This document shows positions 1-63,114 of a stretch of DNA of 64,000 nt, one piece after another. Numbering within the stretch: the stretch's first letter is position 1; every line of letters begins with the position of its first letter. The stretch is taken from the NCBI RefSeq assembly GCF_001422285.1, contig NZ_LMMO01000003.1:821135-885134 (forward strand), given 5' to 3'. The position numbers and the translations under genes are program-made. The notes beneath the pieces were generated by a model. It worked only from the letters and a program-made list of their open reading frames with translations, was not told the DNA's origin and searched no databases. The stretch is from Frigoribacterium sp. Leaf263 (lineage in GTDB: Bacteria; Actinomycetota; Actinomycetes; Actinomycetales; Microbacteriaceae).

Positions 1-518
1 GCTTGCGGGCGGTGGCCGAACGATTCGGCAGGAGCGTCCTGACCGCTGCCGGTGATCTCGACCGCGCGGCCCTCGGGGGCATCGTCTTCGCCGATGCCTC
101 CGCGCGAGCCGATCTGGAGGCCATCATCCATCCGGCGGTCCGCGCGCTGTCGACGCGTCGGATGAACGAGGCCGTGACCGATGATCCGGAACGCGTCATC
201 GTCTACGACGTGCCCCTCCTCGTCGAGTCCCGTGGTGCCGGAGACTTCGACGTCGTCGCGGTGGTCGACACGCCACGGGAGACGAGGCTCCGGCGCCTCG
301 TCGAACTCCGAGGCATGTCCGAGGCCGAGGCTGTGAGGCGGTTGGACGCGCAGGCGCCCGACGACGTCCGTCTGGCCGCCGCCGACCTCGTGGTCGACGC
401 GAGCGGCACTCTCGACGACACCCGCCGTGGGAGCGACGAGCTCTACGACCGTCTCCGTTCGCTGTCAGCACGCAAGGCGTCCGGCTCATCGGCGAGCACT
501 GTCGGTGGTCGCTCGTAA
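1..518 (+). CDS. coaE: Dephospho-CoA kinase, C-terminal part (5' end outside the window)
   Basis: CoaE phosphorylates dephospho-CoA with ATP, the last step of coenzyme A synthesis in the cytoplasm. The window opens inside the gene, so the P-loop is missing. About 171 codons remain. They include the lid/helical region with the family-typical stretch [14 protein letters not shown], then [19 protein letters not shown] (the conserved DxPLLxE element) and the C-terminal [12 protein letters not shown] segment. The Ser/Gly-rich tail ([13 protein letters not shown]) is probably disordered. The stop TAA at 516-518 is also the first half of a -10-like hexamer for uvrB, which starts 10 bases later. CoaE next to UvrB is a common actinobacterial arrangement. 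The identification is secure; only the true start is unseen. Confidence 0.93.
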
Positions 519-521
519 ACT
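516..521 (+). promoter_or_regulatory. -10-like hexamer TAAACT for uvrB, overlapping the coaE stop
   Basis: TAAACT lies 7 bases before the uvrB ATG, so transcription would begin at or next to the start codon (leaderless). Its first three bases are the coaE stop codon. Inferred from position and from the same geometry at many other genes here. Confidence 0.5.
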
Positions 522-528
522 CGAGGGT

Positions 529-2595
529 ATGCAACCGACCCGCAGTGTTCGTCCCTTCGAAGTCGTCAGCGAGTACGAACCGAGCGGCGATCAGCCCGCG
601 GCGATCGCCGAGCTGGCTGGTCGGATCAACGCCGGCGAGACGGATGTAGTGCTGCTGGGCGCCACCGGCACGGGCAAGTCGGCCACGACGGCCTGGCTCG
701 TCGAGCAGGTCCAACGCCCCACTCTGGTCCTCGCCCACAACAAGACCCTGGCGGCGCAGCTCGCGAACGAGTTCCGCGAGATGTTCCCCCACAATGCGGT
801 CGAGTACTTCGTGTCGTACTACGACTACTACCAGCCCGAGGCCTACGTCCCCCAGACGGACACGTTCATCGAGAAGGACTCCTCGATCAACGCCGAGGTC
901 GAGCGTCTGCGGCACTCCACGACGAACTCCCTTCTGAGCCGGCGCGACGTCATCGTCGTATCGACGGTCTCGTGCATCTACGGCCTCGGCACACCCGAGG
1001 GGTACCTGGAGGCCATGATCGCCCTGCAGGTGGGCCAGAAGATCGAACGCGAGACGCTCATCCGTCGATTCGTGTCGATGCAGTACCAGCGGAACGACAT
1101 CGACTTCTCTCGGGGCAACTTCCGCGTTCGCGGCGACACCATCGAGATCATCCCGATGTACGAAGAGCTGGCCATCCGCATCGAGATGTTCGGTGACGAG
1201 GTCGAGGCCCTCTACGCGCTCCACCCCCTGACCGGTGACGTCGTGAAAACCCTCGATGCCGTCTCCGTCTTCCCGGGTTCCCACTACGTCGCGGGCACCG
1301 ATGTCATGCACAGGGCCATCGGCACGATCAAAGACGAGCTCGCCGATCGGCTGGCCGAACTCGACAAGCAGGGCAAGCTCCTCGAGTCGCAGCGGCTTCG
1401 GATGCGGACGACCTTCGACCTCGAGATGATGGAGCAGATCGGCTTCTGCAACGGCATCGAGAACTACTCGTCCCACATCGACGGCCGGTCGCCAGGCGAA
1501 GCGCCGCATTGTCTGCTCGACTACTTCCCCGACGATCTGCTCGTCGTCATCGACGAGTCCCATGTCACGGTGCCGCAGATCGGCGCGATGTACGAGGGCG
1601 ACGCATCCCGCAAGCGCACCCTGGTCGACCACGGCTTCCGGCTCCCGAGCGCCCTCGACAACAGGCCGCTGAAGTTCGAGGAGTTCCTCGATCGCGTCGG
1701 CCAGAAGGTCTACCTCTCGGCGACCCCCGGCAAGTACGAGCTCGGGATCACCGACAGCGTCGTCGAGCAGATCATCCGCCCGACGGGTCTCATCGACCCG
1801 GAGATCGTCATCAAACCCTCCGAGGGGCAGATCGACGATCTGCTCGAAGAGATCAAGCTCCGGAGCGAGCGCGACGAACGGGTGCTGGTCACGACCCTGA
1901 CGAAGAAGATGGCGGAGGAGCTCACCGACTTCCTCACGGAGGCGGGCGTCCGGGTCCGATACCTGCATTCGGACGTCGACACCCTGCGACGCGTCGAGCT
2001 GCTGACGGAGCTCCGTCAGGGCGTCTACGACGTGCTCGTCGGAATCAACCTCCTCCGTGAAGGGCTCGACCTCCCGGAGGTGTCGCTCGTCGCGATCCTG
2101 GACGCCGACAAGGAGGGATTCCTGAGGTCGTCCACGTCTCTCATCCAGACCATCGGCCGCGCCGCTCGCAACGTGTCCGGGCAGGTCCACATGTACGCCG
2201 ACAAGATGACCGATTCGATGAAGCAGGCTCTCGAAGAGACTGATCGTCGTCGCGACAAGCAGATCGCCTACAACCTCGAGCGGGGGATCGACCCCCAGCC
2301 TCTCCGGAAGAAGATCGCGGACATCACCGAGGCCCTGGCGAGGGAGGGCGTCGACACGGCCGCGCTCCTCGCCGGCCGAGACGGGAAGAAACGAGCCCCG
2401 ACGCCGAACCTCAGACGCGAGGGTCTGGCGGCGGGTGCGGCCAACGGACTCGAATCGATCATCGCCGACCTCAACGAGCAGATGCTGCAGGCCGCGGCCG
2501 AACTGAAGTTCGAGCTCGCCGGGAGACTGCGCGATGAGGTCGCCGACCTGAAGAAGGACCTTCGGCAGATGGAGGCGGCGGGGCATGTCCGCTGA
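529..2595 (+). CDS. uvrB: Excinuclease ABC subunit B
   Basis: UvrB is the damage-verifying helicase-like subunit of UvrABC nucleotide excision repair. UvrA loads it, and UvrC incises around it. The 688-residue product has the Walker A GATGTGKS at residues 44-51. The beta-hairpin that clamps DNA is [16 protein letters not shown] at about 97-112. The helicase motif [12 protein letters not shown] and motif VI region QTIGRAARN are present, and a C-terminal UVR domain ([20 protein letters not shown]) binds UvrC. Length is typical. I chose ATG 529 over an upstream in-frame codon at 427 because homology begins there, the coaE frame runs up to 518, and a TAAACT hexamer sits 7 bases upstream. No LexA-type palindrome is obvious before it. 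It overlaps the next gene by 11 bases. Confidence 0.97.
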
Positions 2596-3487
2596 TCGGA
2601 AGAGGATCGTCGTCACCGGTGCGACCGCAGGGCTCGGGTACTTCGCGGCTGAGCGCCTCGCCGCCCAGGGGCACAGGGTGGTCATCGCCGCCCGTGACGG
2701 GGTGCGCGCGAGCCGCGCCGTCGACGCCATCATCGACAGACTGCCCGCGGCCGATCTCGAGACGGTCGAGCTCGACCTGGCGGATCTCCGGTCCGTCCGC
2801 TCGGGCGCCGCCGCCATCGCCGCAGGCGGACCGGTGGACGTCCTGCTGGCGAACGCGGGAGTGGTCGGTTCGCGTCGTCGACAGAAGACGACCGACGGAT
2901 TCGAGCTTCAGTTCGGCACGAACCACCTGGGGCATTTCGCTCTGGTCTCGCACCTCCTCCCCGCTCTCGAAGCCGCCCCGGCGGCCCGTGTGGTGCATCT
3001 CGGCAGCATCAGCCATCGGTGGGTCCGGCTCGACCTCGACGACCCGATGATGCTGTCGAGCTACTCCAACTACGTCGCGTACGCGAGATCCAAGCTGGCC
3101 GTCATGACCTTCGGCTTCGAACTCGACAGGAGGCTGCGTCGTGCTTCGTCCACCGTGTCGAGCGTGGTCGCGCATCCCGGCTTCTCCTGGGAATCGCTGA
3201 GCGAGCCTCGACCTCCCGTCGTCGTGCCCCACCGCCCACCGGCTGTCATCACGTCCGCCATGCACACGTTCTCGCAGGGCAAGGAGATCGGCGCCGAGCC
3301 GCTCGTGGAGGCGGCGGTGGCCGAAGGCGTGCGGGGAGGGGAATACTGGGGCCCGGCCGGCTGGTTCCAGTTGACCGGTGGACCCGCGCTCGTGAAGGCC
3401 TCAGCCCACGCCTACGATCTCGCAGCCGCAGACCGCCTCTGGACGGAGTCAGCCCGTCTCACCTCCACCCGCCCCTCCCTCGATTGA
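2585..3487 (+). CDS. Short-chain dehydrogenase/reductase, substrate unknown
   Basis: A 300-residue NAD(P)-dependent oxidoreductase of the classical/extended SDR type. The Rossmann motif TGATAGLG is at 11-18, the NAG motif LLANAG at about 87-92, and a catalytic Ser lies near 141-143. The YxxxK pair is Y166/K170 (YARSK). The architecture ([13 protein letters not shown], then a long C-terminal region) resembles retinol-dehydrogenase/WW-domain-oxidoreductase-like bacterial SDRs; real substrates of these are rarely known. The start ATG lies inside uvrB (11-base overlap), so the two are probably translated from one message, although a repair role does not follow from that. No signal peptide is seen. 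The family call is firm; the function is not assignable. Confidence 0.88.
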
Positions 3488-3524
3488 GCTGAACGCGCCG
3501 ACCTCGCGATGTCGGTGGCCTTCA

Positions 3525-3530
3525 TAGAAT
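3525..3530 (+). promoter_or_regulatory. -10-like hexamer TAGAAT for uvrA
   Basis: TAGAAT lies 7 bases before the GTG chosen as the uvrA start. It fits a leaderless transcript and argues against the upstream in-frame ATG at 3529, which would overlap the hexamer itself. Confidence 0.55.
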
Positions 3531-3537
3531 GGTAAGA

Positions 3538-6483
3538 GTGTCAATCTCTCCCGTAGACGGTGTCCCGAAACTCAGTGTTCGAGGGGCCCGTGTCCACAAT
3601 CTCCACAACGTCGATCTCGAGATCCCACGGGACTCCCTCGTCGTGTTCACCGGGCTCTCCGGGTCCGGCAAGTCGTCGCTCGCCTTCGACACGATCTTCG
3701 CGGAGGGGCAGCGGCGCTACGTCGAGTCCCTCTCCGCGTACGCGAGGCAGTTCCTGGGGCAGGTCGATCGACCGGACGTCGACTTCATCGAGGGGCTCAG
3801 CCCGGCCGTGTCGATCGACCAGAAGTCGACGAACCGGAACCCTCGATCCACCGTCGGCACGATCACCGAGATCTACGACTACATGCGTCTGCTCTGGGCC
3901 CGGATCGGCATCCCGCACTGCGCCATCTGCGGAGAGAAGATCAGCCGTCAGACGGTGCAGCAGATCGCCGATCAGCTGATGACCCTCGACGAGGGCACCC
4001 GCTTCCAGGTCCTCAGCCCCGTCGTCTCGCAGAAGAAGGGCGAGTTCGTCGATCTCTTCGCCGAACTGGCGTCCTCCGGCTACTCGCGGGCCATCGTCGA
4101 CGGCGAGCAGATCCAGCTCAGCGCCCCGCCGAAGCTCAAGAAGCAGGTCAAGCACGACATCTCCGTCGTCGTCGATCGGCTCGTGGCCTCGCCGTCCGGC
4201 CTCACCCGTCTGACGGACTCGCTCGAGACGGCGCTTCGTCTGACCGACGGGCTCGTGACGGTCGACTTCGTCGACACGGACGCCGACGCCGCCGGCAAGT
4301 ACCGCACGTTCTCCGAGAAGCTCTCCTGCCCGAACAACCACCCGGTCCAGCTGACCGAGATCGAACCGAGGACGTTCTCCTTCAACGCCCCGTTCGGCGC
4401 CTGCCCCGAGTGCTCCGGGCTCGGCACCCGCATGTCCGTCGACACCGACCTCGTCCTCGGCGACCCGGAGCTCAGCCTCGTCGAGGGCGTCATCCTCCCG
4501 TGGACGAACTCGGGCAAGGGCCTCTACAACTACTTCCAGAAGCTGCTCGAGGGCCTGGCCGTCGATCTGGACTTCAGCCTGAAGACCCCGTGGGCGCAGC
4601 TGCCGACCCGCATCCAGCAGGCGGTCCTGCACGGGAACGACTTCGAGGTCACGGTCAAGTGGAAGAACCGCTTCGGCCGGGAGATGAAGTACTCGACCGG
4701 CTTCGAGGGCGTCATGCCGTACATCGAGCGGAAGTACGCCGAAGCCGAGAGCGACAGCCAACGCCAGCGGTACTCGGAGTACCTCCGCGAGATCCCGTGC
4801 TCGGTCTGCGACGGAAAGCGCCTGAAGCCCGAGGTCCTCGCGGTCACCGTGGCCGATCACAACATCGCCGACGTCTCGGAGCTGAGTCTCGCGGACGCCT
4901 TCACGTTCATGAACGGTCTCACCCTGACCGTCCGTGAGGCGCGGATCGCGGCGCAGGTCCTCCGAGAGATCCGGGTGCGACTCGAATTCCTTCTCGAGGT
5001 CGGTCTCACCTACCTGTCGCTGAGTCGCGCCGCGGGCTCGCTGTCCGGTGGTGAGGCCCAGCGCATCAGGCTCGCCACACAGATCGGCTCCGGGCTGACG
5101 GGCGTCCTCTACGTCCTCGACGAACCCAGCATCGGCCTTCATCAGCGCGACAACCGGCGCCTCATCGACACCCTGGTCAAACTGAAGAACCTGGGCAACA
5201 CGCTCATCGTCGTCGAGCACGACGAAGACACGATCAAGACCGCCGACTGGATCGTCGACATCGGCCCCGGTGCCGGTGTCAACGGCGGCACGGTGGTGCA
5301 CTCCGGCAACTACGAGGACCTCGTCGCCAACACCGACTCCTACACAGGCGACTACCTGTCAGGTCGTCGCTCGATCGAGACTCCGACCGAACGACGTCCC
5401 ATCGACAAGAAGCGCATGCTGAGCGTGGTCGGAGCCAAGGCCAACAACCTGCGCGACGTCACGGTGGAGTTCCCGCTGGGAACCTTCGTCGCGGTCACGG
5501 GAGTGAGCGGTTCGGGCAAGTCGTCCCTCGTGAACGACATCCTGTACAAGGTCCTGGCCAACAAGCTGAACGGCGCGAGGCAGATCCCGGGCAAGCACCT
5601 CCGGGTGACCGGACTCGACAACCTCGACAAGGTCGTCCATGTGGACCAGGCGCCGATCGGCCGGACGCCTCGTTCGAACCCCGCCACGTACACCGGCGTC
5701 TTCGACCGGATCCGGAACCTGTTCGCCGAGACGACCGACGCCAAGGCGCGCGGTTACCTCCCCGGGCGCTTCAGCTTCAACGTCAAGGGCGGGCGCTGCG
5801 AGAACTGCGCCGGCGACGGCACCATCAAGATCGAGATGAACTTCCTGCCCGACGTCTACGTCGCGTGCGAGGTCTGCGGCGGTGCTCGCTACAACCGGGA
5901 GACCCTCGCGGTGCTCTACAAGGGCAAGAACATCTCCGAGGTGCTCGACATGCCCATCAGCGAGGCGGCCGAGTTCTTCGCGCCGATCTCCGCCATCTCC
6001 CGATTCATGTCCACTCTGGTCGACGTCGGCCTCGGCTACGTGCGTCTCGGGCAGAGCGCGACCACCCTGTCCGGCGGAGAGGCGCAGCGCGTCAAGCTCG
6101 CCACGGAGCTCCAGCGGCGGTCAAACGGGCGGAGCATCTACGTGCTCGACGAGCCCACGACCGGTCTCCACTTCGAGGACGTCCGCAAGCTGCTGCTCGT
6201 GCTGAACGGTCTCGTCGACAAGGGCAACACCGTGATCACCATCGAGCACAACCTCGACGTGATCAAGTCGGCCGACTGGCTCATCGACATGGGTCCGGAG
6301 GGCGGAGCAGGAGGAGGCTCGGTCATCGCCGCCGGTACGCCCGAGTTCCTCGCGAAGGTACCCGACAGCCACACGGGCAGGTTCCTGGCCGAGATCCTCG
6401 AGAGCGGGCACACGGCCGTCCCGTCGCGCGCCACCCAGAAGGCACCCGCACGACGCCGTCGGGAGGCGCTGGACGCACGATGA
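3538..6483 (+). CDS. uvrA: Excinuclease ABC subunit A
   Basis: UvrA is the damage-sensing ATPase dimer of nucleotide excision repair. The product (981 residues from GTG 3538) has two ABC modules. The first Walker A is GLSGSGKSS near residues 40-48, with signature [17 protein letters not shown] and Walker [15 protein letters not shown]. The second Walker A is [10 protein letters not shown], with [14 protein letters not shown] and [14 protein letters not shown]. Zinc-finger cysteines are visible as CPECSGLG in the first half and as CENCAGDG...CEVCGGARY in the second. The start is set by family alignment (SISPVD...[12 protein letters not shown]) and by the TAGAAT hexamer 7 bases upstream; ATG 3529 is the alternative. 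The stop TGA overlaps the uvrC ATG (ATGA), so UvrA and UvrC are translationally coupled. Confidence 0.97.
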
Positions 6484-8408: not shown

Positions 8409-8411
8409 ACT
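8406..8411 (+). promoter_or_regulatory. -10-like hexamer TAGACT upstream of rapZ
   Basis: TAGACT begins with the uvrC stop codon TAG and lies 39 bases before the rapZ ATG. Here a leadered transcript with a ribosome site (GAAGGT, 8438-8443) would result. Inferred from similarity to other -10 elements in the window. Confidence 0.4.
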
Positions 8412-8450
8412 CGACCCACCGCCCGACCGCCCCGACCGAAGGTCACCGTC

Positions 8451-9332: not shown

Positions 9333-9390
9333 CCGAGACGGTCGGCGGATTCGTGCGCGCGCCGATCGACCCGAGAGAAGGAACCCAGGT

Positions 9391-10371: not shown

Positions 10372-10405
10372 GGCGGGCGGGACGCCGCTCCGAAGGGTGG
10401 TCGAG

Positions 10406-10540: not shown

Positions 10541-11560
<1,020 letters not shown>

Positions 11561-30316: not shown

Positions 30317-30322
30317 TGGACT
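30317..30322 (+). promoter_or_regulatory. -10-like TGGACT for the ABC-F gene
   Basis: TGGACT lies 6 bases before GTG 30329, the same geometry as other leaderless candidates in the window, although the second base departs from TANNNT. Weak call. Confidence 0.3.
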
Positions 30323-30328: not shown

Positions 30329-31927
30329 GTGCTTTCCGTGCACGACCTCGAGATCCGCGTCGGCGCGCGCCTGCTGATGGAAGACGTGACGTTCCGCGTC
30401 GACAAGGGCGACAAGATCGGCCTCGTCGGCCGGAACGGCGCCGGCAAGACCACGATGACCAAGACGCTCGCCGGTGAGACGCTGCCCACCGGCGGCACCA
30501 TCGAGAAGACGGGCGAGATCGGCTACCTCCCGCAGGACCCTCGCAGCGGCAACCCCGAGGATCTCGCCCGCACGCGCATCCTCGACGCCCGCGGGCTCGG
30601 TCAGATCCTCCTGGGCATCCAGGAGGCCTCGATCGAGATGGGCAGCGACGACCCCGCCGTCGCGGCGCGTGCGATGAAGCGCTACGGCGACCTCGACGAT
30701 CGCTTCAACGCCCTCGGCGGATACGCCGCCGAGGCCGAGGCGGCCTCGATCGCCAGCAACCTCAGCCTCCCCGACCGCATCCTCGAACAGCCCCTGTCGA
30801 CCCTGTCGGGTGGTCAGCGACGTCGCATCGAGTTGGCGCGCATCCTGTTCTCGGCCGCCGACACCATGATCCTCGACGAGCCGACCAACCACCTCGACGC
30901 CGATTCGGTCGTCTGGCTCCGCGAGTACCTCAAGACCTACCAGGGCGGGGTCATCGTGATCAGTCACGACATCGAGCTCGTGGAGGAGGTCGTGAACCGC
31001 GTCTTCTACCTCGATGCGAACCGCCAGGCCATCGACATCTACAACATGGGATGGCGGAACTACCAGCGTCAACGCGCCGCCGACGAGGAGCGCCGCAAGA
31101 AGGAGCGCTCGAACGCCGAGAAGCAGGCGTCGGCTCTGCAGAAGCAGGCCGCCCGCTTCGGAGCGAAGGCGTCCAAGGCGGCGGCCGCCCACCAGATGGT
31201 CGCCCGGGCCGAGAAGCTCCTCGCCGGGTTGGACGAGGTGCGTGCCGTCGATCGCGTCGCGAAGCTCAGGTTCCCGACCCCGGTCGCGTGCGGCAAGACG
31301 CCCCTCATGGCCTCCAACCTGTCGAAGAGCTACGGCTCGCTCGAGATCTTCACGGCTGTCGACCTGGCGATCGACCGCGGGTCCAAGGTGGTCATCCTCG
31401 GGCTCAACGGTGCCGGCAAGACGACCCTGCTGCGCATCCTCGCCGGCGTGGACGAGCCCGACACCGGCCAGCTCGAGCCGGGGCACGGGCTCCGGGTGGG
31501 CTACTACGCGCAAGAGCACGAGACGATCGACGTCAAGCGCAGCGTGCTCGAGAACATGGTGTCCTCCTCGCCGAACATCACCGAGATGGAGGCGCGCCGG
31601 GTGCTCGGCTCGTTCCTGTTCACGGGGGACGACTCCGCCAAGCCCGCCGGCGTCCTGTCCGGTGGTGAGAAGACGCGCCTCGCTCTCGCGATGATCGTCG
31701 TGTCCGGGGCCAACGTCCTGCTGCTCGACGAGCCCACGAACAACCTCGACCCCGCCAGCCGCCTCGAGATCCTGGACGCCCTCGCCAACTACGAAGGCGC
31801 CGTGGTCCTGGTCAGCCACGACGAGGGTGCCGTCGAGGCTCTGAACCCGGAGCGCGTCCTCATCATGCCCGAGGGCACGGAGGACCACTGGACCCCGGAC
31901 TACAGCGAGCTCATCAACCTCGCCTGA
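30329..31927 (+). CDS. ABC-F family ribosome-associated ATPase
   Basis: ABC-F proteins have two ATPase modules and no membrane part. They act in the ribosomal E site to relieve stalling, and some protect against antibiotics. The 532-residue product has Walker A GRNGAGKTT (first half) and GLNGAGKTTLL (second half), signatures LSGGQRRRIELARIL and LSGGEKTRLALAMIV, and Walker B ILDEPTNHLDAD and LLDEPTNNLDPA. The basic, charged interdomain linker (EERRKKERSNAEKQAS region) is the P-site tRNA interaction motif. The start GTG 30329 gives LSVHDLEIRVGARLL; the ORF extends upstream without homology. The length matches a 530-540-residue actinobacterial subfamily whose precise role is not settled, so no symbol is given. 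Confidence 0.92.
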   Translation: MLSVHDLEIRVGARLLMEDVTFRVDKGDKIGLVGRNGAGKTTMTKTLAGETLPTGGTIEKTGEIGYLPQDPRSGNPEDLARTRILDARGLGQILLGIQEASIEMGSDDPAVAARAMKRYGDLDDRFNALGGYAAEAEAASIASNLSLPDRILEQPLSTLSGGQRRRIELARILFSAADTMILDEPTNHLDADSVVWLREYLKTYQGGVIVISHDIELVEEVVNRVFYLDANRQAIDIYNMGWRNYQRQRAADEERRKKERSNAEKQASALQKQAARFGAKASKAAAAHQMVARAEKLLAGLDEVRAVDRVAKLRFPTPVACGKTPLMASNLSKSYGSLEIFTAVDLAIDRGSKVVILGLNGAGKTTLLRILAGVDEPDTGQLEPGHGLRVGYYAQEHETIDVKRSVLENMVSSSPNITEMEARRVLGSFLFTGDDSAKPAGVLSGGEKTRLALAMIVVSGANVLLLDEPTNNLDPASRLEILDALANYEGAVVLVSHDEGAVEALNPERVLIMPEGTEDHWTPDYSELINLA

Positions 31928-34968: not shown

Positions 34969-34974
34969 AGCCTA
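34969..34974 (-). promoter_or_regulatory. -10-like TAGGCT for serB
   Basis: TAGGCT on the minus strand lies 6 bases before the serB GTG, with no ribosome site between them, as expected of a leaderless gene. Confidence 0.5.
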
Positions 34975-36245: not shown

Positions 36246-36251
36246 AGAATG
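36246..36251 (-). promoter_or_regulatory. -10-like CATTCT for glgC
   Basis: CATTCT lies 6 bases before the glgC ATG on the minus strand. It differs from TANNNT at one base. It pairs with TACGGT for glgM on the other strand in the same 47-base gap. Confidence 0.4.
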
Positions 36252-36273: not shown

Positions 36274-36279
36274 TACGGT
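36274..36279 (+). promoter_or_regulatory. -10-like TACGGT for glgM
   Basis: TACGGT lies 7 bases before the GTG of glgM; no ribosome site is present between them. Fits a leaderless transcript. Confidence 0.45.
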
Positions 36280-36286: not shown

Positions 36287-37471
36287 GTGCGAGTCGATGT
36301 CATCACCAAGGAATATCCGCCGAACGTCTACGGAGGCGCCGGCGTCCACGTCGTCGAGCTCGTCAAGGCCCTCCGGGAGTCCATCGACGTCCGGGTGAGA
36401 GCCCTCGGCGACGTCGACGACGAGCCCGGCACCACGGGCTACCCGGAGCTGCCGGCGCTGGCCTCCGCCAACCCCACCCTCCGGACCCTCGGCAGCGATC
36501 TCCTCGCCGCGCAGGACGTCGCCGGAGCCGATGTCGTGCACAGCCACACCTGGTACGCGAACGCGGCCGGGCAGCTGGCGCAGATGCTGCACGATGTGCC
36601 TCACGTCCTGACGGCGCACAGTCTCGAGCCCCTCCGGCCGTGGAAGGCCGAGCAGCTCGGCGGCGGCTACCGCGTGTCGAGCTGGATCGAGAGACAGGCC
36701 TACGAGACCGCCGACGCCGTCATCGCCGTGAGCGAGGGCATGCGCCGCGACATCCTCCGGTCGTACCCGACGATCGACGAGGGCAAGGTCAGCGTCGTCT
36801 ACAACGGCATCGACCTCGACGCGTGGCGTCCCGTCAGCGACGAGGGGGTCCTCCGCGACCTCGGGATCGATCCCGACCGACCGTCCGTCGTCTTCGTCGG
36901 GCGCATCACGCGTCAGAAGGGTCTGCCCTACCTGCTGCGGGCGGCCCGGCTCCTGCCGCCCGACGTCCAGCTGGTTCTCTGCGCGGGCGCCCCGGACACT
37001 CCCGAGATCATGGCCGAGGTGACCGGGCTCGTCCACGAGCTGCAGGAGGCGCGCACGGGTGTGGTCTGGATCGATCGCGTCCTGCCCCGCCACGAGCTGA
37101 GCGCGGTCCTGACCTCCGCGACGACCTTCGTCTGCCCGTCGATCTACGAGCCTCTCGGCATCGTCAACCTCGAGGCCATGGCCTGCGGCGTGCCCGTCGT
37201 GGGCTCCGGCACCGGCGGGATCCCCGAGGTGGTCGCCGACGGTCTCACCGGTCGGGTGGTGCCCCTCGATCAGGTCCAGGACGGCACCGGGACCCCCACC
37301 GACCCCGATCGCTTCGTGCGCGATCTGGCGGGGATCCTCACCGACGTGGTCTCCGACCCGGGGCTCGCGAAGCTCATGGGGCGCGCCGGGCGCATGCGGG
37401 CCGAAGCCGAGTTCTCGTGGTCGCGGATCGCCGAGCGGACCCTCGAGGTCTACTCGGGTCTGCGTCGATAG
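36287..37471 (+). CDS. glgM: Glycogen synthase-type GT4 enzyme, probable alpha-maltose-1-phosphate synthase (GlgM)
   Basis: A 394-residue GT-B glycosyltransferase (family GT4). Unlike the roughly 480-residue GT5 glycogen synthase of E. coli, the short actinobacterial form beside glgC is known in mycobacteria (Rv1212c) to make maltose-1-phosphate from ADP-glucose and glucose-1-phosphate. Motifs: YPPNVYGGAGVHVVELVKAL at the N-terminus, VVYNGIDLDAWRP, FVGRITRQKGLPYLL (donor-site Arg/Lys) and the GT4 EX7E element CPSIYEPLGIVNLEAMACG. Start GTG 36287, 7 bases after TACGGT. The substrate assignment rests on subfamily and neighbourhood; a plain glycogen synthase is the alternative. Its TAG stop is also the start of a TAGGCT hexamer for the next gene. 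Confidence 0.85.
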   Translation: MRVDVITKEYPPNVYGGAGVHVVELVKALRESIDVRVRALGDVDDEPGTTGYPELPALASANPTLRTLGSDLLAAQDVAGADVVHSHTWYANAAGQLAQMLHDVPHVLTAHSLEPLRPWKAEQLGGGYRVSSWIERQAYETADAVIAVSEGMRRDILRSYPTIDEGKVSVVYNGIDLDAWRPVSDEGVLRDLGIDPDRPSVVFVGRITRQKGLPYLLRAARLLPPDVQLVLCAGAPDTPEIMAEVTGLVHELQEARTGVVWIDRVLPRHELSAVLTSATTFVCPSIYEPLGIVNLEAMACGVPVVGSGTGGIPEVVADGLTGRVVPLDQVQDGTGTPTDPDRFVRDLAGILTDVVSDPGLAKLMGRAGRMRAEAEFSWSRIAERTLEVYSGLRR

Positions 37472-37474
37472 GCT
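37469..37474 (+). promoter_or_regulatory. -10-like TAGGCT overlapping the glgM stop
   Basis: TAGGCT starts with the glgM stop codon and ends 6 bases before the next ATG (37481), leaving no room for a ribosome site. Third example of stop/-10 fusion in this window. Confidence 0.5.
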
Positions 37475-39571: not shown

Positions 39572-39580
39572 GCCTCGAGT

Positions 39581-41320
<1,740 letters not shown>

Positions 41321-41327: not shown

Positions 41328-41333
41328 ACTCTA
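41328..41333 (-). promoter_or_regulatory. -10-like TAGAGT for treS
   Basis: TAGAGT on the minus strand ends 7 bases before GTG 41320. This decides between two in-frame GTG codons 9 bases apart. Confidence 0.5.
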
Positions 41334-41377: not shown

Positions 41378-41383
41378 TAGACT
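41378..41383 (+). promoter_or_regulatory. -10-like TAGACT for the alpha/beta hydrolase gene
   Basis: TAGACT ends 6 bases before GTG 41390; no ribosome site lies between. Divergent from the treS element across 69 bases. Confidence 0.5.
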
Positions 41384-47943: not shown

Positions 47944-47949
47944 ACGTTA
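47944..47949 (-). promoter_or_regulatory. -10-like TAACGT for the SGNH hydrolase gene
   Basis: TAACGT ends 7 bases before ATG 47936 on the minus strand, within a 39-base divergent gap that also holds the opposite -10 (47964). Confidence 0.45.
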
Positions 47950-47963: not shown

Positions 47964-47969
47964 TACTCT
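47964..47969 (+). promoter_or_regulatory. -10-like TACTCT for the acyl-CoA dehydrogenase-like gene
   Basis: TACTCT ends 6 bases before GTG 47976; no ribosome site lies between. Confidence 0.45.
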
Positions 47970-49169: not shown

Positions 49170-49193
49170 TCTCCGGATGTCGGAGGCCCGTGT

Positions 49194-49199
49194 GAGGAT
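49194..49199 (+). promoter_or_regulatory. -10-like GAGGAT for dinB
   Basis: GAGGAT ends 6 bases before GTG 49206. First base departs from TANNNT, so the call rests mainly on spacing. No LexA box recognised upstream. Confidence 0.3.
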
Positions 49200-49205: not shown

Positions 49206-50504
49206 GTGAGCAAACAGGACGGCAGCGGGCGACTGGTCACCAGCCATCCCACCGACGACGCGACGGCTCCGATCCTCCACGTCGACATGGACGCCTTCTT
49301 CGCCTCGGTCGAACTGCTCGATCGCCCCGATCTGGTCGGTCAGCCGGTCGTGATCGGTCATCGGTCGGAGCGCTCGGTCGTCACGGCCGCGACGTACGAG
49401 GCACGGAAGTACGGCGTGAACTCCGCGATGCCCATGGCGATCGCGCTCCGGCGATGCCCGCAGGCCGTCGTCCTCGAGCCCCACGGCGAGAAGTACCGTC
49501 ACTACTCGTCGATCGTCATGTCGATGTTCGACGACGTCACGCCGATGGTCGAGCGGCTCGGCATCGACGAGGCCTTCCTCGACGTCTCGGGGTCCATCCG
49601 CCTGATGGGGTCGCCCTTCGAGATCGCGACCGAGCTCCGCCGCAGGGTGCACGACGAGACGGGACTGCACTGCAGCATCGGCGCCGCCTCCACGAAGTTC
49701 GTGGCGAAGCTCGCGTCGAGCGTCGCCAAGCCGGACGGCCTGCTCATCGTCCCTCACGACGAGACGCTCGGGTTCCTGCACCCGCGGCCGATCAGCGGGC
49801 TCTGGGGCGTCGGGGGCAAGACGGAGGAGACCCTGCTCAACCTCGGCCTGCGGACCATCGGCGATGTGGCCGCCGCACCCCTCGACACGCTCGTGCGGGC
49901 CGTGGGCCCGGCAGGCGGTGCGAAGCTGCACGCCCTCTCCTGGGGCCGCGACCCGCGGTCCGTCACGACGACGACCGAGGAGAAGAGCGTCGGGCACGAG
50001 GTCACGTTCTCGAGCGACGTGACCGACCCCGTCGAGATCCGTCGCGAGCTGCTGCGGCTCAGCGACAAGGTCGCCGTCCGTCTCCGTGCCGCCGGCATGA
50101 GCGGACGCACCGTCGTGCTGAAACTGCGGACCACCGACTTCGTCACCATCACGCGCTCGAAGACGCTCGCCGAACCCACGGATCTCGGTCGACGCATCTA
50201 CGACGAGGTGCGTTCGGTGTACGAGGCGACGGGCAAGCAGCACGAACGCATCCGGCTCGTGGGCGTCCGGGTCGAGCAGCTGGTGGCGGGTGCAGGGGGC
50301 GGCTTCTCGCTCGGGCTGTGGGACGACGACGCCGACTGGCGCGAGGCCGAGTCGACGATGGACGCCCTCCAGGCGAAGTTCGGTTCGGCGATGCTCACGC
50401 CGGCGTCGCTCCTCCGCCCCGGCAACGGTCGGCCGGGCCGGCGCCGCACGGGCGCTTCGCCGGTCGAGCCGCCCGCCGACCCCGGGTACAGTGGGGTCGA
50501 GTGA
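49206..50504 (+). CDS. dinB: DNA polymerase IV (Y family)
   Basis: DinB copies past DNA lesions with low fidelity. The 432-residue product has the palm motif ILHVDMDAFFASVELLD (D27, D29), YEARKYGVNSAMPMAIALRRCP (fingers), GIDEAFLDVSGSI with the second acidic pair, and helix-hairpin-helix LWGVGGKTEETLLNLGLRTI; the little-finger domain follows. The C-terminus (PGNGRPGRRRTGASPVEPPADPGYSGVE) lacks an obvious beta-clamp QLxLF motif; the nearest candidate is FSLGLW at about 365. A 20-residue polar N-terminal extension precedes the palm. Stop overlaps the helicase start (GTGA), so the two are translated together. Confidence 0.93.
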   Translation: MSKQDGSGRLVTSHPTDDATAPILHVDMDAFFASVELLDRPDLVGQPVVIGHRSERSVVTAATYEARKYGVNSAMPMAIALRRCPQAVVLEPHGEKYRHYSSIVMSMFDDVTPMVERLGIDEAFLDVSGSIRLMGSPFEIATELRRRVHDETGLHCSIGAASTKFVAKLASSVAKPDGLLIVPHDETLGFLHPRPISGLWGVGGKTEETLLNLGLRTIGDVAAAPLDTLVRAVGPAGGAKLHALSWGRDPRSVTTTTEEKSVGHEVTFSSDVTDPVEIRRELLRLSDKVAVRLRAAGMSGRTVVLKLRTTDFVTITRSKTLAEPTDLGRRIYDEVRSVYEATGKQHERIRLVGVRVEQLVAGAGGGFSLGLWDDDADWREAESTMDALQAKFGSAMLTPASLLRPGNGRPGRRRTGASPVEPPADPGYSGVE

Positions 50505-52446: not shown

Positions 52447-52452
52447 TACGAT
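52447..52452 (+). promoter_or_regulatory. -10-like TACGAT for the small gene at 52459
   Basis: TACGAT ends 6 bases before ATG 52459. GGGGG lies between but abuts the start codon, too close to be a ribosome site. Confidence 0.45.
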
Positions 52453-52458
52453 CGGGGG

Positions 52459-52713
52459 ATGCTCGATCCGCTCGGAGAACGTCGCTGGGTCGTCCGTCGC
52501 GAAGACGGTTCCGCCCCGTTGGCGCTCGTGGAGCGGTTCGGCGGGGGTTACCGACTGACGCGGTGGTCCATCGTCGAGAGAGAGCAGCGCCCCCTCGGGG
52601 TCTTCACGTCGGCGGAGCAGGCCGAGACCGCCTGGTGGCGGCATCTCGACCGAGACCACGGTCACCGCAGCGGCAGCACCTCGGCGAGGGCGAGACGCCT
52701 CGGCGAGGACTGA
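52459..52713 (+). CDS. Small hypothetical protein
   Basis: An 84-residue protein that I do not recognise. It reads RRWVVRREDGSAPLALVERF, GGGYRLTRWSIVEREQRPLG, VFTSAEQAETAWWRHLDRD and a basic tail SGSTSARARRL. Alternating strands followed by a helix (SAEQAETAWWRHL) suggest a small compact alpha-beta fold. The -10-like hexamer at the leaderless distance and codon use with strong third-position GC support it as real. It overlaps the 3' end of the convergent gene by 52 bases. Function unknown. Confidence 0.65.
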   Translation: MLDPLGERRWVVRREDGSAPLALVERFGGGYRLTRWSIVEREQRPLGVFTSAEQAETAWWRHLDRDHGHRSGSTSARARRLGED

Positions 52714-53228
52714 ATGCGCTCCCGTCTCGCCCCTCCGCCGATGTCCCGGCTCAGGCCGCCCTGATCCGCCCTCGACGACGCGCCCGCGATCGACGCGGAC
52801 GCCGCGGACGCCGGTAACGCCGGCGCCACCACCCAGGGGCGGACGCCGACGTCGGTGCAGCCCAGCACGGAGCGGACGACGAGCCCCGGCGACGAGTCGA
52901 GCGTGCTGAGGGACTCGCACCACGCCCTGTCCGAATCGTTCGGCTCTGCCCCACCCGGGCGTTCGATGACGAACGACACCCAGGCGACCTCGAACTCGGC
53001 GACCACCGCCTCCAGGGCACGGCCCCATGCGAGGACGGCCGACCGCGACGGCCGCTCGGGGATCCCCTCGAGGGGGACCATCATCGGGAGCTGCACGTCA
53101 TCGCGGTCGAAGAACAGCGTCCACAGCTGACGGCGGACGGCCACGGGCAGCAGCTCGGCCACCCGATCGGCGAGATCGTGAACGCTCGAGACGGGCAGAT
53201 GGGCGGGTGAGGGAGGGCGGCAGGTCAT
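52662..53228 (-). CDS. Hypothetical protein with a helical DUF-like N-terminal domain
   Basis: A 188-residue unknown. The first 130 residues look like a folded domain: SSVHDLADRVAELLPVAVRRQL, LFFDRDDVQLPMMVPLEGIP, WGRALEAVVAEFEVAWVSFV and LSTLDSSPGLVVRSVLG. The last 55 are low-complexity (Ala/Ser/Arg) and overlap the convergent gene by 52 bases, so the true end may be frayed or a frame error may exist. ATG 53228 is chosen because CAGGCT ends 6 bases before it (leaderless pattern). Similar proteins occur in related actinobacteria, I believe, but I cannot name a family. Confidence 0.6.
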   Translation of the reverse strand: MTCRPPSPAHLPVSSVHDLADRVAELLPVAVRRQLWTLFFDRDDVQLPMMVPLEGIPERPSRSAVLAWGRALEAVVAEFEVAWVSFVIERPGGAEPNDSDRAWCESLSTLDSSPGLVVRSVLGCTDVGVRPWVVAPALPASAASASIAGASSRADQGGLSRDIGGGARRERIQSSPRRLALAEVLPLR

Positions 53229-53358
53229 GGCTTCAGCCTGCCGGGGGCCTGCAGCTGATCGGAGCCGCTCCACAGCCCGGGTCGCTCTCCGTGCCCGGCC
53301 TTCTGATGGGGAGGGATCATGGCCCTCTCGCCGGACGACCGTGCCACGACACCGGCCG

Positions 53359-54402: not shown

Positions 54403-54405
54403 GGG

Positions 54406-57141: not shown

Positions 57142-57214
57142 CGCCGCCCGCCCCTCGTCAGCCGGGCCGATCCGACCCTCACCCCACGGCCCGGACGGGC
57201 TGCACAGCACGTCA

Positions 57215-57220
57215 ACCCTA
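57215..57220 (-). promoter_or_regulatory. -10-like TAGGGT for the osmoprotectant operon
   Basis: TAGGGT lies 74 bases before the first ATG on the minus strand. The only candidate with TANNNT form in the 118-base gap before the flavin monooxygenase gene. No clear -35. Confidence 0.35.
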
Positions 57221-57259
57221 ACCGGGATGCGCGCCGGGCGTCACGGAGAGGCCGCGGGG

Positions 57260-58648: not shown

Positions 58649-58654
58649 GACCTC

Positions 58655-58660
58655 ATTCTG
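58655..58660 (-). promoter_or_regulatory. -10-like CAGAAT for the LLM monooxygenase gene
   Basis: CAGAAT ends 6 bases before ATG 58648 on the minus strand. GAGGTC between them is too close to act as a ribosome site. Confidence 0.4.
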
Positions 58661-58725
58661 GGTCGCCGTCCCGAGCGCGTCGCCGGATGCCGAAACACGG
58701 CGTCACACTCGCGCGCCCACCCGAT

Positions 58726-59397: not shown

Positions 59398-59449
59398 ACG
59401 CTTGTTACCTCGCGGAAACCGACGACAGGTCGTGAAGCCATAGATTCAC
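59377..59449. promoter_or_regulatory. Candidate operators between the regulator and NCS1 transporter genes
   Basis: GTGTGA-N11-TCACAC occurs at 59377-59399 across the regulator start. GTGAA-N8-TTCAC occurs at 59432-59449, covering the -10-like TAGATT (59441-59446) of the transporter gene. Both contain GTGAAGC as their left half. Plausible binding sites for the XRE-cupin protein; pattern only. Confidence 0.45.
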
Positions 59450-59503
59450 ACCAGGACGAGGATCACCACCCCCTCACGCTACCTCGTCGATCAGGAGGAA
59501 CTC

Positions 59504-61084
59504 GTGGAATCGAACACCGCTCCGACCGCCCCGGCGGAGGCGCCCGGCACCTCCCCGCTCGACCGGACGCCGTCCGGCCACGCTGCCGGGGGAGCCGGGT
59601 ACCACCCGGACCTGACCAACGACGACCTCGCGCCTCTGACCCGCCAGACCTGGCGCAGCTACAACATCTTCGCGTTCTGGATGTCCGACGTGCACTCGGT
59701 CGGCGGGTACGTGACGGCGGGCAGCCTCTTCGCCCTCGGCATCGCCAGCTGGCAGGTCCTGGTGGCCCTCGTCGGCGGCATCGTGATCGTCAACGTCTTC
59801 ACGAACATGGTCGCGAAGCCGAGTCAGCGCACGGGTGTTCCGTACCCCGTGGTCAACCGGGCGGTCTTCGGCGTCCGAGGAGCCAACATCCCGGCGATCA
59901 TCCGGGGCCTGATCGCCACGGCCTGGTACGGCGTCCAGACCTACCTCGCCTCGCAGGCCCTCACGATCATGTTCCTGAAGTTCCTCCCGGGCAGCGCGGC
60001 CCTGCTCGAGCCGTCCTTCCTCGGCCTCGACGCCCTCGGCTGGATCAGCTACGGGATCCTGTGGGTGGCACAGGCGGCGCTGTTCTGGCGGGGGATGGAG
60101 TCCATCCGCCGTTTCATCGACTTCGCCGGCCCGGCCGTCTACATCGTGATGATCGCCCTGGCCGTCTATCTCGTCTCGCAGGCGGGCTGGGGCGGCGTGA
60201 GCCTCACCCTGTCGGCCGGGCCCCCGCTGGACCTCGGGGCGTCGATCCCCGTCATGCTCTCGGCCGTGGCCATCGTGGTGAGCTACTTCTCGGGACCGAT
60301 GCTGAACTTCGGCGACTTCGCCCGATACGGTCGCAGCTTCCAGGCCGTGAAGAAGGGCAACCTCCTGGGACTGCCCGTCAACTTCCTCTTCTTCTCGCTG
60401 CTCACGGTGATCTGCGCATCCGCGACGGTGCCGGTCTTCGGGAGGCTCATCACCGACCCCATCGAGACCGTCGACGCCATCGGCACACCCTTCGCGATCC
60501 TCCTCGGCGGGCTGACGTTCGTCACGGCCACGGTCGGCATCAACATCGTCGCGAACTTCATCTCGCCGGCCTTCGACTTCACGAACGTGAGCCCGCGCCG
60601 CATCAGCTGGCGCGCCGGAGGGATGATCGCCGCCGTGGGCAGCGTCGCCCTCACCCCCTGGAACTGGTACGGGGACGCCCAGGCCATCCAGTACTCGCTG
60701 GGTGTGCTCGGCGCCCTCATCGGTCCGCTGTTCGGCATCCTCATCGCGGGGTACTACCTCGTCGGTCACCAGCGGATCGCAGTCGACGACCTCTTCACGA
60801 TGGGCCCAGCCGGGCGCTACTGGTACCGGCGCGGCGTCAACCCGAACGCCGTCCGAGCCCTGGTCGCCTCGGGAACCGCATCCGTGGCCGTCGCCGTCGT
60901 GCCGGCGCTCGTCGTCGACCTCGGCGGCCCCTCGGTCGTCTGGGTCAGCGACTACAGCTGGTTCGTCGGCTGCGGTCTCGGCCTCCTCATCTTCCGCGCC
61001 CTCGAACGACGCTGGCCCCGCATGCCGTCGCTCGACCCCGCCGACGAGTCCGTCGACGACGGCACCGCCCCCACCCCCGCCTAG
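59504..61084 (+). CDS. NCS1-family nucleobase:cation symporter
   Basis: A 526-residue membrane transporter of the nucleobase-cation-symport-1 family (Mhp1/PucI/CodB relatives), which imports purines, pyrimidines, allantoin or hydantoins. About 12 helices are visible. Motifs: RQTWRSYNIFAFWMSDVHSVGGYVTAGSL in part (NxFxFWMSDVHS), FGVRGANIPAIIRGLIATAWYGVQTYL and SYFSGPMLNFGDFARYGRS; the late segment is TPWNWYGDAQAI. GTG 59504 has an AGGAGG site. The partner gene downstream is a hydantoin-racemase-like enzyme, which suggests uptake of a hydantoin, allantoin or related cyclic ureide; inferred. Confidence 0.9.
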   Translation: MESNTAPTAPAEAPGTSPLDRTPSGHAAGGAGYHPDLTNDDLAPLTRQTWRSYNIFAFWMSDVHSVGGYVTAGSLFALGIASWQVLVALVGGIVIVNVFTNMVAKPSQRTGVPYPVVNRAVFGVRGANIPAIIRGLIATAWYGVQTYLASQALTIMFLKFLPGSAALLEPSFLGLDALGWISYGILWVAQAALFWRGMESIRRFIDFAGPAVYIVMIALAVYLVSQAGWGGVSLTLSAGPPLDLGASIPVMLSAVAIVVSYFSGPMLNFGDFARYGRSFQAVKKGNLLGLPVNFLFFSLLTVICASATVPVFGRLITDPIETVDAIGTPFAILLGGLTFVTATVGINIVANFISPAFDFTNVSPRRISWRAGGMIAAVGSVALTPWNWYGDAQAIQYSLGVLGALIGPLFGILIAGYYLVGHQRIAVDDLFTMGPAGRYWYRRGVNPNAVRALVASGTASVAVAVVPALVVDLGGPSVVWVSDYSWFVGCGLGLLIFRALERRWPRMPSLDPADESVDDGTAPTPA

Positions 61085-61095
61085 GAGACACCGCC

Positions 61096-61839
61096 GTGCA
61101 CATCCGTGTCATCAACCCCAACACCAGCGTCGCCATGACCCGATCGATCGGCACCGCGGCGAGGGACGCCGTGTCGCCGTCGTCTCGGGTGAGCGCCGCC
61201 CATCCGACGATGGGCCCCGCCTCCATCGAGAGCCACTACGAGGAGGCGCTGGCCGTCCCCGGTCTCCTCGAGCAGATCTCCGTCGGGGAGCGCGAGGGGG
61301 TCGACGCGTTCGTGATCGCCTGCTTCGGCGATCCCGGACTCGACGCCGCGCGGGAGCTGGCGACGGTTCCGGTGGTGGGCATCGCGGAGGCGGCGTTCCA
61401 TGCGGCCGCCTTCGTGGCCCGTCGGTTCGGCGTCGTGACGACGTTGGGACGCACCACGGGTCGCGCGCGCGAACTCGTCGACCGGTACGGGTTCGGGTCC
61501 GCCTGCACGGTGATCCGGGCCTGCGAGATCCCGGTGCTGGCACTCGACGACCCGGCGTCCTCGGCCCGGCGGGCGGTCGCCGACGAATGCCGCCTGGTCC
61601 TCGACTCGGGGGCCGAGGCGATCGTCCTCGGCTGCGCGGGGATGGCCGACCTCTGCCACGAGCTCACCGTCGAGCTCGGGGTCCCCGTCGTCGACGGCGT
61701 CCGGGCGGGTGCCGCCTTCGCCGAGTCCCTCGCTCGCCTCGGTCTGAGCAGCGGCGCACGGGGCGAGTACGCCGCACCTCCCGAGAAGGGCTTCTCGGGT
61801 CTGCTCAGCGGCTTCTCGCTCGCGGGGCCGTCCGCCTGA
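61096..61839 (+). CDS. Asp/Glu/hydantoin racemase-family protein
   Basis: A 247-residue cofactor-independent racemase. It has the family start IRVINPNTSVAMTRSIG, the two catalytic cysteines C76 in VIACFGDPGLDAAREL and C180 in IVLGCAGMADLC, and GVVTTLGRTTG in between. This is the hydantoin/allantoin racemase branch (HyuE, HpxA). Start GTG 61096, 11 bases after the NCS1 stop, with AGGAGA. Coupled expression with the transporter suggests that both handle one cyclic ureide. No hydantoinase, carbamoylase or allantoinase gene is in the window, so the rest of the pathway lies elsewhere. Confidence 0.85.
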   Translation: MHIRVINPNTSVAMTRSIGTAARDAVSPSSRVSAAHPTMGPASIESHYEEALAVPGLLEQISVGEREGVDAFVIACFGDPGLDAARELATVPVVGIAEAAFHAAAFVARRFGVVTTLGRTTGRARELVDRYGFGSACTVIRACEIPVLALDDPASSARRAVADECRLVLDSGAEAIVLGCAGMADLCHELTVELGVPVVDGVRAGAAFAESLARLGLSSGARGEYAAPPEKGFSGLLSGFSLAGPSA

Positions 61840-61854
61840 CCCGAGGCGACGACG

Positions 61855-61860
61855 TACCCT
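61855..61860 (+). promoter_or_regulatory. -10-like TACCCT for the MFS gene
   Basis: TACCCT ends 6 bases before ATG 61867; the intervening GAGGGG abuts the start codon, so is too close to be a standard ribosome site. Confidence 0.4.
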
Positions 61861-61866
61861 GAGGGG

Positions 61867-63114
61867 ATGTCCACACCGGCGCCCGACGTCCCCCACGAGG
61901 CGCCCCGCGTCCGACTCGGACGCGACGTGGTCGTCCTCGGCGTCATCGCGTTCTTCGTCATGGTCGGATTCGGCGTCGTCGTGCCCGTCCTCCCGGTCTA
62001 CGCCCGGAGCTTCGGGGTCGACAACACCCTGGTCGGCGCCGTGCTGTCGGCCTTCGCCCTCATGCGCCTCGTGGCGAGCCCCTTCGTCGGCAAGCTGCTC
62101 GACCGGGTCGGCGAGCGACTCGTCCTCGCGGTCGGCATCGGCATCGTCGCCATCTCGAGCGGCCTGGCGGGGCTCGCCGAGACGTACCCGCAGCTGCTGC
62201 TGCTCCGTGGTCTCGGCGGCATCGGGTCGGCCATGTTCAGCATCGCGGCGATGACCCTCCTCCTCGCCACGACGGCGCCGTCGCATCGCGCACGGGCCAT
62301 CGGCTTCTATCAGGGCGGCTTCCTGGTCGGCGGCATGGCCGGTCCGGCCCTCGGCGGGGTCCTGGCCACGATCTCCCTCACGGCGCCCTTCTTCTTCTAC
62401 GCGGCCACCCTCGTGATCGCCGGCGTGGTGGGCGTCGTGCTGCTGCGATCGCCGCGAGGCCGCAGCACGACGGCACCGGGCGAACCCCCCGTCGCCTTCG
62501 CGGTCGTGATCCGCGACATCCGCTTCCGGGCGGCGTGCGTGGCGAGCTTCGCGCAGGGCTGGTCGTCCCTCGGGGTGCGCAGCGCGCTCGTCCCCGTCCT
62601 GGTCGTCGAGGTGCTCAAGGGGACGACGGCCTGGACGGGCGTCGTCTTCGCGGTGGCCGCGGTCGCCCAGACCGTCGCCCTCGCTCCCGCCGCCCGCCTG
62701 GTCGACACGGTGGGGCGCCGACCGGCGATGATCGTCGCGTTCCTCGTCGCCGGAGTCACGCTCGCCGCCGTGGCGTTCTCGACCGACGTCGTGATGCTCG
62801 GTGCGCTGCTGGCCGTCTACGGCGTGGCCACGGCCTTCATGGGCACGGCTCCCGCCGCGCTGGTCGGCGACGCGGCGGGCGGTCGCGGCGGTCGCCCCGT
62901 GGCCGTGTTCTCGATGTGCTCCGACGTGGGCGCGATCGCCGGTCCGCTGATCGCGGGTCTGCTGGTGGACACCACGTCGTACGCGGTCGCGTTCGGCTCT
63001 GCGGGGGCCCTCCTGGTGCTCAGCGCCGTCGTGTCGCTGCGACTGCCGCGGGCCCTGCCCGCCGACCACGATGCGAAGGAGGCGCGCCCCGGTTCCCCGG
63101 GACGCGCCTCCTGA
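61867..63114 (+). CDS. MFS transporter
   Basis: A 415-residue 12-helix major facilitator. The loop 2-3 motif A appears as PFVGKLLDRVGERLVLAVG and its repeat in the second half as ARLVDTVGRRPAMIVAFLVAG. Helix 5 motif C region reads GFYQGGFLVGGMAGPALGG, which is characteristic of drug/proton antiporters, so export is likely. Substrate unknown. Start ATG 61867 at leaderless distance from TACCCT. The gene ends within a perfect 10-bp inverted repeat of the recurring AGGAGGCGCG motif. Confidence 0.9.
   Translation: MSTPAPDVPHEAPRVRLGRDVVVLGVIAFFVMVGFGVVVPVLPVYARSFGVDNTLVGAVLSAFALMRLVASPFVGKLLDRVGERLVLAVGIGIVAISSGLAGLAETYPQLLLLRGLGGIGSAMFSIAAMTLLLATTAPSHRARAIGFYQGGFLVGGMAGPALGGVLATISLTAPFFFYAATLVIAGVVGVVLLRSPRGRSTTAPGEPPVAFAVVIRDIRFRAACVASFAQGWSSLGVRSALVPVLVVEVLKGTTAWTGVVFAVAAVAQTVALAPAARLVDTVGRRPAMIVAFLVAGVTLAAVAFSTDVVMLGALLAVYGVATAFMGTAPAALVGDAAGGRGGRPVAVFSMCSDVGAIAGPLIAGLLVDTTSYAVAFGSAGALLVLSAVVSLRLPRALPADHDAKEARPGSPGRAS
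63077..63112. terminator. Terminator built from AGGAGGCGCG / CGCGCCTCCT
   Basis: 63077-63086 pairs perfectly with 63103-63112; the loop contains a smaller CCCGG/CCGGG stem. The right arm includes the first base of the MFS stop codon. Lies between convergent genes. Confidence 0.8.

Follow-up and report, generated by a model that had tools for sequence, protein, structure and literature searches.

Results

The stretch of DNA analysed here (the window) comprises 64,000 nucleotides, C3:821135-885134, of the 3.24 Mb genome of Frigoribacterium sp. Leaf263 (Microbacteriaceae). Its subject is a hexamer of the form TANNNT just upstream of many start codons, in which a first-pass annotation had seen the signature of leaderless genes. 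With the gap defined as the number of bases between hexamer and start codon, a hexamer was indeed present 6 to 7 bases before the start codon at all 17 sites named; 12 are exact TANNNT and five deviate at one position (Table 1). At the level of Pfam families, the encoded proteins fit UvrB, UvrA, a two-domain ABC protein (ABC-F type), HAD (serB-like), nucleotidyl transferase (glgC), GT4 (glgM), ABC ATPase, RNase T/DnaQ, GH13 (treS-like), alpha/beta hydrolase, GDSL/SGNH, acyl-CoA dehydrogenase, IMS polymerase (dinB), luciferase-like (LLM) and MFS proteins. The product of the gene at 53228 matched no family at an E value of 0.001. The treS-like protein and its counterpart from Frigoribacterium faeni share 98% identity. 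The small gene at 52459 (stop at 52713, 84 codons) is absent from gene calls based on codon usage.

Table 1. Hexamers and putative promoter elements before the 17 starts of the window. Boxes designated -10 and RecA-NDp/PafBC-type promoters are predictions. pTA, model posterior for a TA box; last column, aligned congener starts with YANNNT (T/C-A-N-N-N-T) at gap 6 or 7 unless stated otherwise.
Gene and start	Feature	Positions	Strand	Match to TANNNT	pTA	Congeners
uvrB, ATG 529	RecA-NDp/PafBC-type promoter, TGTCGGTG-N8-TAAACT, gap 7	500..521	+	exact		damage element and -10 in 10/10
uvrA, GTG 3538	RecA-NDp/PafBC-type promoter, TGTCGGTG-N7-TAGAAT, gap 7	3510..3530	+	exact		-10 in 10/10, damage element in 6/10
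ABC-F, GTG 30329	candidate -10 TGGACT	30317..30322	+	one mismatch	0.66	0/10
HAD/serB-like, GTG 34962	-10 TAGGCT	34969..34974	-	exact	1.00	10/10
glgC, ATG 36239	-10 CATTCT	36246..36251	-	one mismatch	0.94	10/10
glgM, GTG 36287	-10 TACGGT	36274..36279	+	exact	0.92	9/9 (1 unaligned)
ABC ATPase, ATG 37481	-10 TAGGCT	37469..37474	+	exact	1.00	10/10
DnaQ/RNase T, GTG 39571	RecA-NDp/PafBC-type promoter, CGTCGGTG-N8-TAAACT, gap 6	39578..39599	-	exact	1.00	4/4 (6 unaligned at start)
treS-like GH13, GTG 41320	-10 TAGAGT	41328..41333	-	exact	0.98	10/10
alpha/beta hydrolase, GTG 41390	-10 TAGACT	41378..41383	+	exact	1.00	10/10
SGNH hydrolase, ATG 47936	-10 TAACGT	47944..47949	-	exact		TANNNT in 10/10
acyl-CoA dehydrogenase-like, GTG 47976	-10 TACTCT	47964..47969	+	exact	0.98	1/1 (9 unaligned)
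dinB, GTG 49206	RecA-NDp/PafBC-type promoter, TGTCGGAG-N8-GAGGAT, gap 6	49178..49199	+	one mismatch		TGTCGGNG-N8-GAGGAT in 10/10, hence YANNNT 0/10
small gene, ATG 52459	-10 TACGAT	52447..52452	+	exact		TANNNT in 10/10
gene at ATG 53228	CAGGCT	53235..53240	-	one mismatch		1/2 (8 mapped, unaligned)
LLM, ATG 58648	CAGAAT	58655..58660	-	one mismatch	0.92	1/8
MFS, ATG 61867	-10 TACCCT	61855..61860	+	exact	0.99	2/2 (6 mapped, unaligned)

Within the window and another 40 stretches of the genome (864 kb), gene starts were called solely from codon usage. This gave 788 genes, 768 of which, 711 outside and 57 inside the window, had sufficient upstream sequence. Exact TANNNT at gap 6 preceded 64 of the 711 and six of the 57 starts as compared with two of 7,928 internal in-frame ATG or GTG codons, and at gap 6 or 7 the numbers were 83, seven and four, respectively. 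Counted on both strands, 180 of 42,923 ATG or GTG triplets had such a hexamer. These counts contradict an equal frequency at start and non-start codons, the outcome that the annotation had named as contrary to its proposal. Hexamers with one mismatch occur at 721 of the 7,928 internal codons (9.1%) and are weak evidence; members of the list that carry them therefore need independent support.

An expectation-maximization model, in which start position and signal type were hidden and the background was first-order, was fitted to 736 genes from random upstream-word seeds. Its best optimum contained a TA motif (T66/C25 A92 G50 G48 C42 T92) in 27.7% of the genes and an AGGAG-type Shine-Dalgarno (SD) site in 56%. 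The TA motif was located at gap 6 in 63%, gap 7 in 22-23% and gap 8 in 5% of its sites, and its class amounted to 27.1% in a run with three motifs. Five of 24 two-motif runs from random seeds matched or exceeded the likelihood of a run seeded with AGGAGG and TANNNT. The random-seed result, with the TA motif in both of the top two runs shown, is the best of many optima. An earlier two-motif version with an order-zero background had returned the SD motif and a position-free GTCGTC-like motif and was replaced by the first-order Markov background.

The model assigned 13 of its 55 window genes to the TA class. All of them, ABC-F and LLM included, belong to the 17, and in all of them the posterior for an SD site (pSD) was below 0.1. 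The further statement that none of the 17 genes has a ribosome site holds for strong sites only, as AGGA precedes dinB at gap 7 and GGTGA precedes glgM at gap 5. Outside the 13, the model alone, which does not consider conservation, was ambiguous for the SGNH gene (pTA 0.42, pSD 0.47) and dinB (pTA 0.39, pSD 0.58). Start codons of the TA class are ATG (133), GTG (67) and TTG (2); TTG is similarly rare in the SD class (9/462). Genes that come first in a transcription unit were assigned to the TA class more often (163/474, 34%) than operon-internal genes (28/222), both when separated from a same-strand neighbor (83/256) and when divergent (80/218). The motif was also said to pick the correct starts of uvrA and treS. 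For uvrA this was borne out: the coding score alone placed the start at 3643, the motif model at 3538, and all ten congener orthologues align at 3538. For treS the motif was unneeded since the coding score already gave 41320.

In the homologous region from ten congeners, a YANNNT box stands at gap 6 or 7 before all 106 aligned starts of 13 window genes (uvrB, uvrA, serB-like, glgC, glgM, 37481, dnaQ, treS, 41390, acyl-CoA dehydrogenase-like, MFS, 52459 and SGNH), as opposed to none of 258 aligned starts of 34 SD genes. ABC-F, LLM, 53228 and dinB were left out of this count. When orthologues were aligned on the hexamer, identity to the window was 78-84% at the T, A and T positions versus 41-59% at positions 3-15 bases further upstream. 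The ABC-F site gives a divided picture: TGGAC(T/A) is conserved, but so are its surroundings, and an alternative start at 30338 is preceded by TGCTGT. In other Microbacteriaceae, among the orthologues listed (at most 26 per gene), many treS and serB genes have an SD site instead of the box and most glgC and glgM genes keep the box, which indicates that single genes switch between the two modes.

Four of the genes, uvrB, uvrA, dinB and dnaQ, share a TGTCGGTG-like word, separated from the -10 box by 7 or 8 bases, that the first-pass annotation had overlooked. The motif tTGTCRgtg-8 nt-TannnT has been described for the LexA/RecA-independent DNA damage response (PMC5656591) and was named RecA-NDp, the motif used by PafBC (PMC6789036). 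PafB is reported to contact the -26 motif and PafC sigma domain 4 (PMC11804915), and according to a review the response extends to other Actinobacteria (PMC8223512). The pattern TGTCRGNG-N7/8-TANNNT is matched exactly by uvrB and uvrA, although the N7 spacer of uvrA departs from the published 8 nt, and with one mismatch in the 8-mer by dnaQ. In dinB, the -10 has G in place of the first T.

The helicase gene that follows dinB, outside the list of 17, has a candidate -10 TACAGT (50487..50492, +) at gap 8 to GTG 50501, a possible start overlapping the dinB stop. TANNNT at gap 8 stands before GTGAGCAC in all seven of the ten congeners listed. In some of them, as judged by eye, the TAA of the box seems to share the reading frame of dinB and might terminate the gene sooner.

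Throughout the genome, TGTCRGNGN{7,8}TANNNT has 48 matches in comparison to six for the reversed pattern, so that about six of the 48 are expected by chance. A coding start lies at gap 5-9 in 30 and at another distance in 15 cases, and three have no clear open reading frame (ORF) downstream. We examined 42 of the 45 downstream genes (40 by Pfam plus uvrB and uvrA; the short ORFs L195, L208 and L231:2984-3286 were left out). Judged by their Pfam names, at least 12 of them belong to repair or replication, namely an AlkZ-like glycosylase, two UvrD-like helicases, DnaX, RecG, RarA/MgsA, PolA, a RadA-like protein, RecA, GyrB, UvrB and UvrA. Others, such as metG-like, M16 peptidase, HIT, aldo/keto reductase, ClpX and SAM synthetase genes, have no obvious repair role, which indicates that chance matches or genes of other kinds fit the pattern as well.

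The regulator itself is encoded nearby. Adjacent WYL genes, pafB and pafC (start of pafC chosen by hand), are situated near C3:896867-898895, some 12 kb past the window. In phmmer searches their products matched solved PafBC chains with E values of 1e-35 and 3e-38, corresponding to the two halves of Arthrobacter PafBC (6sj9) and to the PafBC chains of 7p5x, the M. smegmatis complex. A search for the Pup ligase (PF03136) had no match in this genome; the same search matched Corynebacterium glutamicum among 14 control genomes. PafBC thus seems to have been kept without pupylation.

Many of the RecA-NDp-type promoters appear to be fused to a coding start. ATG or GTG lies at gap 6 or 7 in 32 of the 48 matches, and 29 are followed by a coding start at gap 5-8. 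Ten of the 12 repair and replication genes are fused in this way; RecA and GyrB are unfused. Only four of 16 genomic sites of the comparator TTGACA-N16/18-TANNNT are fused at gap 5-8 (29/48 versus 4/16, Fisher p = 0.02, with small numbers). The difference from the TA-class share of first-in-unit genes (29/48 versus 163/474) gave p = 0.0005, which is indicative only because pattern matches are compared with genes. One match (L226, C4:233656) is followed by an ATG at gap 7 at which the S24 peptidase frame does not open; the start of this frame was placed 69 bases downstream, and a small leaderless ORF may precede it.

Among 148 actinomycete genomes, our own included, 1,593 of 3,271 RecA-NDp-type matches (48.7%) had ATG or GTG at gap 6-7, in contrast to 27 of 649 matches (4.2%) to the reversed control. 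Across the 78 genomes that have 15 or more matches, the median share of RecA-NDp-type matches so placed was 50% (range 13-81%). After subtraction of the background, the fused share in the 148 genomes is approx. 60%. For comparison, 34% of first-in-unit genes belong to the TA class here, and published leaderless shares, which are counted per gene and not per promoter, are 19% in Actinobacteria (PMC3160421) and 26% in M. tuberculosis (PMC3898074).

Discussion

The position of the hexamer, its base pattern, its rarity at internal codons, its conservation and its bias towards the first gene of a unit support a leaderless interpretation of most of the 17 genes. By this sequence-based reading, which we hold with high confidence, the -10 element of a promoter is fused to the start codon, and four of these promoters carry a RecA-NDp/PafBC element. 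The hexamer would be the -10 element of housekeeping-type promoters. RNA polymerase would begin transcription at the first base (A or G) of the start codon or at the base preceding it, and ribosomes would read the resulting leaderless mRNA from its 5′-terminal ATG or GTG. Upstream of uvrB, uvrA, dinB and dnaQ, the RecA-NDp/PafBC element would replace the -35 region, so that these genes would be leaderless and induced by DNA damage.

A leaderless signature as such is already known in Actinobacteria (PMC3160421, PMC3898074). Zheng et al. (2011) found TA-led genes, in which, as in our genes, TAnnnT precedes the start by about 10 bp, in 86 of 89 actinobacterial genomes, at a mean of 19.2% and a range of 2.3-29.8% (PMC3160421). 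Our value of ~27%, obtained in another genus by the same kind of model, is near the upper end; about a quarter of the modelled genes would carry a leaderless signal. In M. tuberculosis, TANNNT is centred 7-12 bp upstream of 73% of the primary transcription start sites (TSSs), and 26% of the genes with a primary TSS are reported to be leaderless (PMC3898074). In M. smegmatis, a 5′-terminal ATG or GTG was described as necessary and sufficient for leaderless translation (PMC4633059). Our set resembles these transcriptomes in its TANNNT -10, the lack of a fixed -35 and ATG or GTG at the presumed +1, but the mycobacterial sets rest on RNA and ribosome maps and ours on sequence. The -10-adjacent ORFs of Deinococcus-Thermus, another phylum, likewise have TANNNT beside the ORF and leaderless mRNA, there tested by mutation (PMC12340547).

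Several observations weigh against this interpretation or narrow it. The TA class includes weak cases, a posterior above 0.9 being reached in only 130 of 736 genes. Conservation rests on few aligned starts for dnaQ (4), MFS (2) and the acyl-CoA dehydrogenase-like gene (1), and the damage element of uvrA is absent from 4/10 congeners. Two of the 17 sites, LLM and 53228, fail the conservation test and are not supported as leaderless signals; the ABC-F site is undecided.

Alternatively, the -10 box could be real and transcripts could begin slightly upstream or at several bases, leaving leaders of one to three bases. The share of sites at gaps 7 and 8 would fit such near-leaderless transcripts, and the M. 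tuberculosis count of leaderless genes included those whose TSS lay within 5 bp of the start codon (PMC3898074). However, the commonest gap of 6 fits the usual distance between -10 and TSS with +1 on the start codon, and mycobacterial reporters required ATG or GTG at +1 (PMC4633059). We consider this alternative rather unlikely. An effect of base composition, or an artefact of choosing starts by the motif, is very improbable. Given the frequency of one-mismatch hexamers at internal codons, part of a permissive list is due to chance, which may account for LLM 58648 and 53228. For the set as a whole, the explanation is refuted by the counts of exact hexamers at starts called from coding information only and by the congener comparison. 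A role of the hexamer as a ribosome-bound translation signal would explain its fixed distance to the start codon. Such a role is hardly credible, since many of the treS orthologues listed have SD sites instead of the box and dinB of another Microbacteriaceae genus (L138) keeps GTGTGAGGAT but places an extra leader with GGAGGTGATC before its ATG; in this one case the box stays while the start moves, as fits a -10 box and not a ribosome site.

Starting from -10-fused leaderless starts as the best explanation, the link to DNA damage deserves attention. Our RecA-NDp set resembles the known RecA-NDp/PafBC regulon (PMC5656591, PMC6789036, PMC8223512, PMC11804915) in the motif before DNA repair genes and the presence of pafB and pafC. 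It differs in that no Pup ligase was found and in the fusion of 29 of its 48 promoters to a coding start. As a class comparator of equal kind is lacking, we regard an enrichment of leaderless starts at RecA-NDp promoters as likely in this genome and extend it to the class as a proposal: a preferential wiring of the actinomycete PafBC regulon to leaderless starts appears about as likely as not at present. Selection may favour SD-free initiation while the cell is damaged. The higB1 gene of M. tuberculosis, whose RecA-NDp promoter lies 51 nt upstream and gives a leader, is a counter-example to fusion (PMC3968373).

A statement that RecA-NDp/PafBC genes are leaderless did not turn up in the literature searched, which did not include the 2018 Cell Reports and 2021 Science Advances papers on PafBC. 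In the available text of the sources, the word "leaderless" is absent from PMC11804915, PMC6789036 and PMC8223512, and "DNA damage" and "DNA repair" are absent from PMC3898074. The portions available of PMC3968373, PMC7790235, PMC13388538 and PMC10936776 hold no such statement either, nor does that of PMC2897130, which treats leaderless LexA. Judged by titles and the beginnings of abstracts, the same literature offered nothing pertinent on leaderless mRNA in Microbacteriaceae, Frigoribacterium or Clavibacter.

Three pairs of boxed genes in the window are arranged back to back: the divergent glgC and glgM (36239/36287), 41320/41390, and the SGNH and acyl-CoA dehydrogenase-like genes (47936/47976), with 39-69 bp between start codons and the smallest distance in the last pair. 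In the sampled genome, both members belong to the TA class in 17 of 96 divergent pairs less than 400 bp apart, at distances of 26-150 bp. Judging from these distances, polymerase footprints would overlap and the promoters may exclude each other.

In summary, the leaderless signature is a practical tool that corrects starts, as in uvrA, and reveals a small gene, that at 52459. The part worth carrying on is the overlap between leaderless starts and the PafBC damage regulon, for which the dinB element without a leader in Frigoribacterium and with a leader in L138 provides a natural comparison. This tie raises the testable question of whether bacteria employ leaderless mRNAs purposefully to express a stress regulon.

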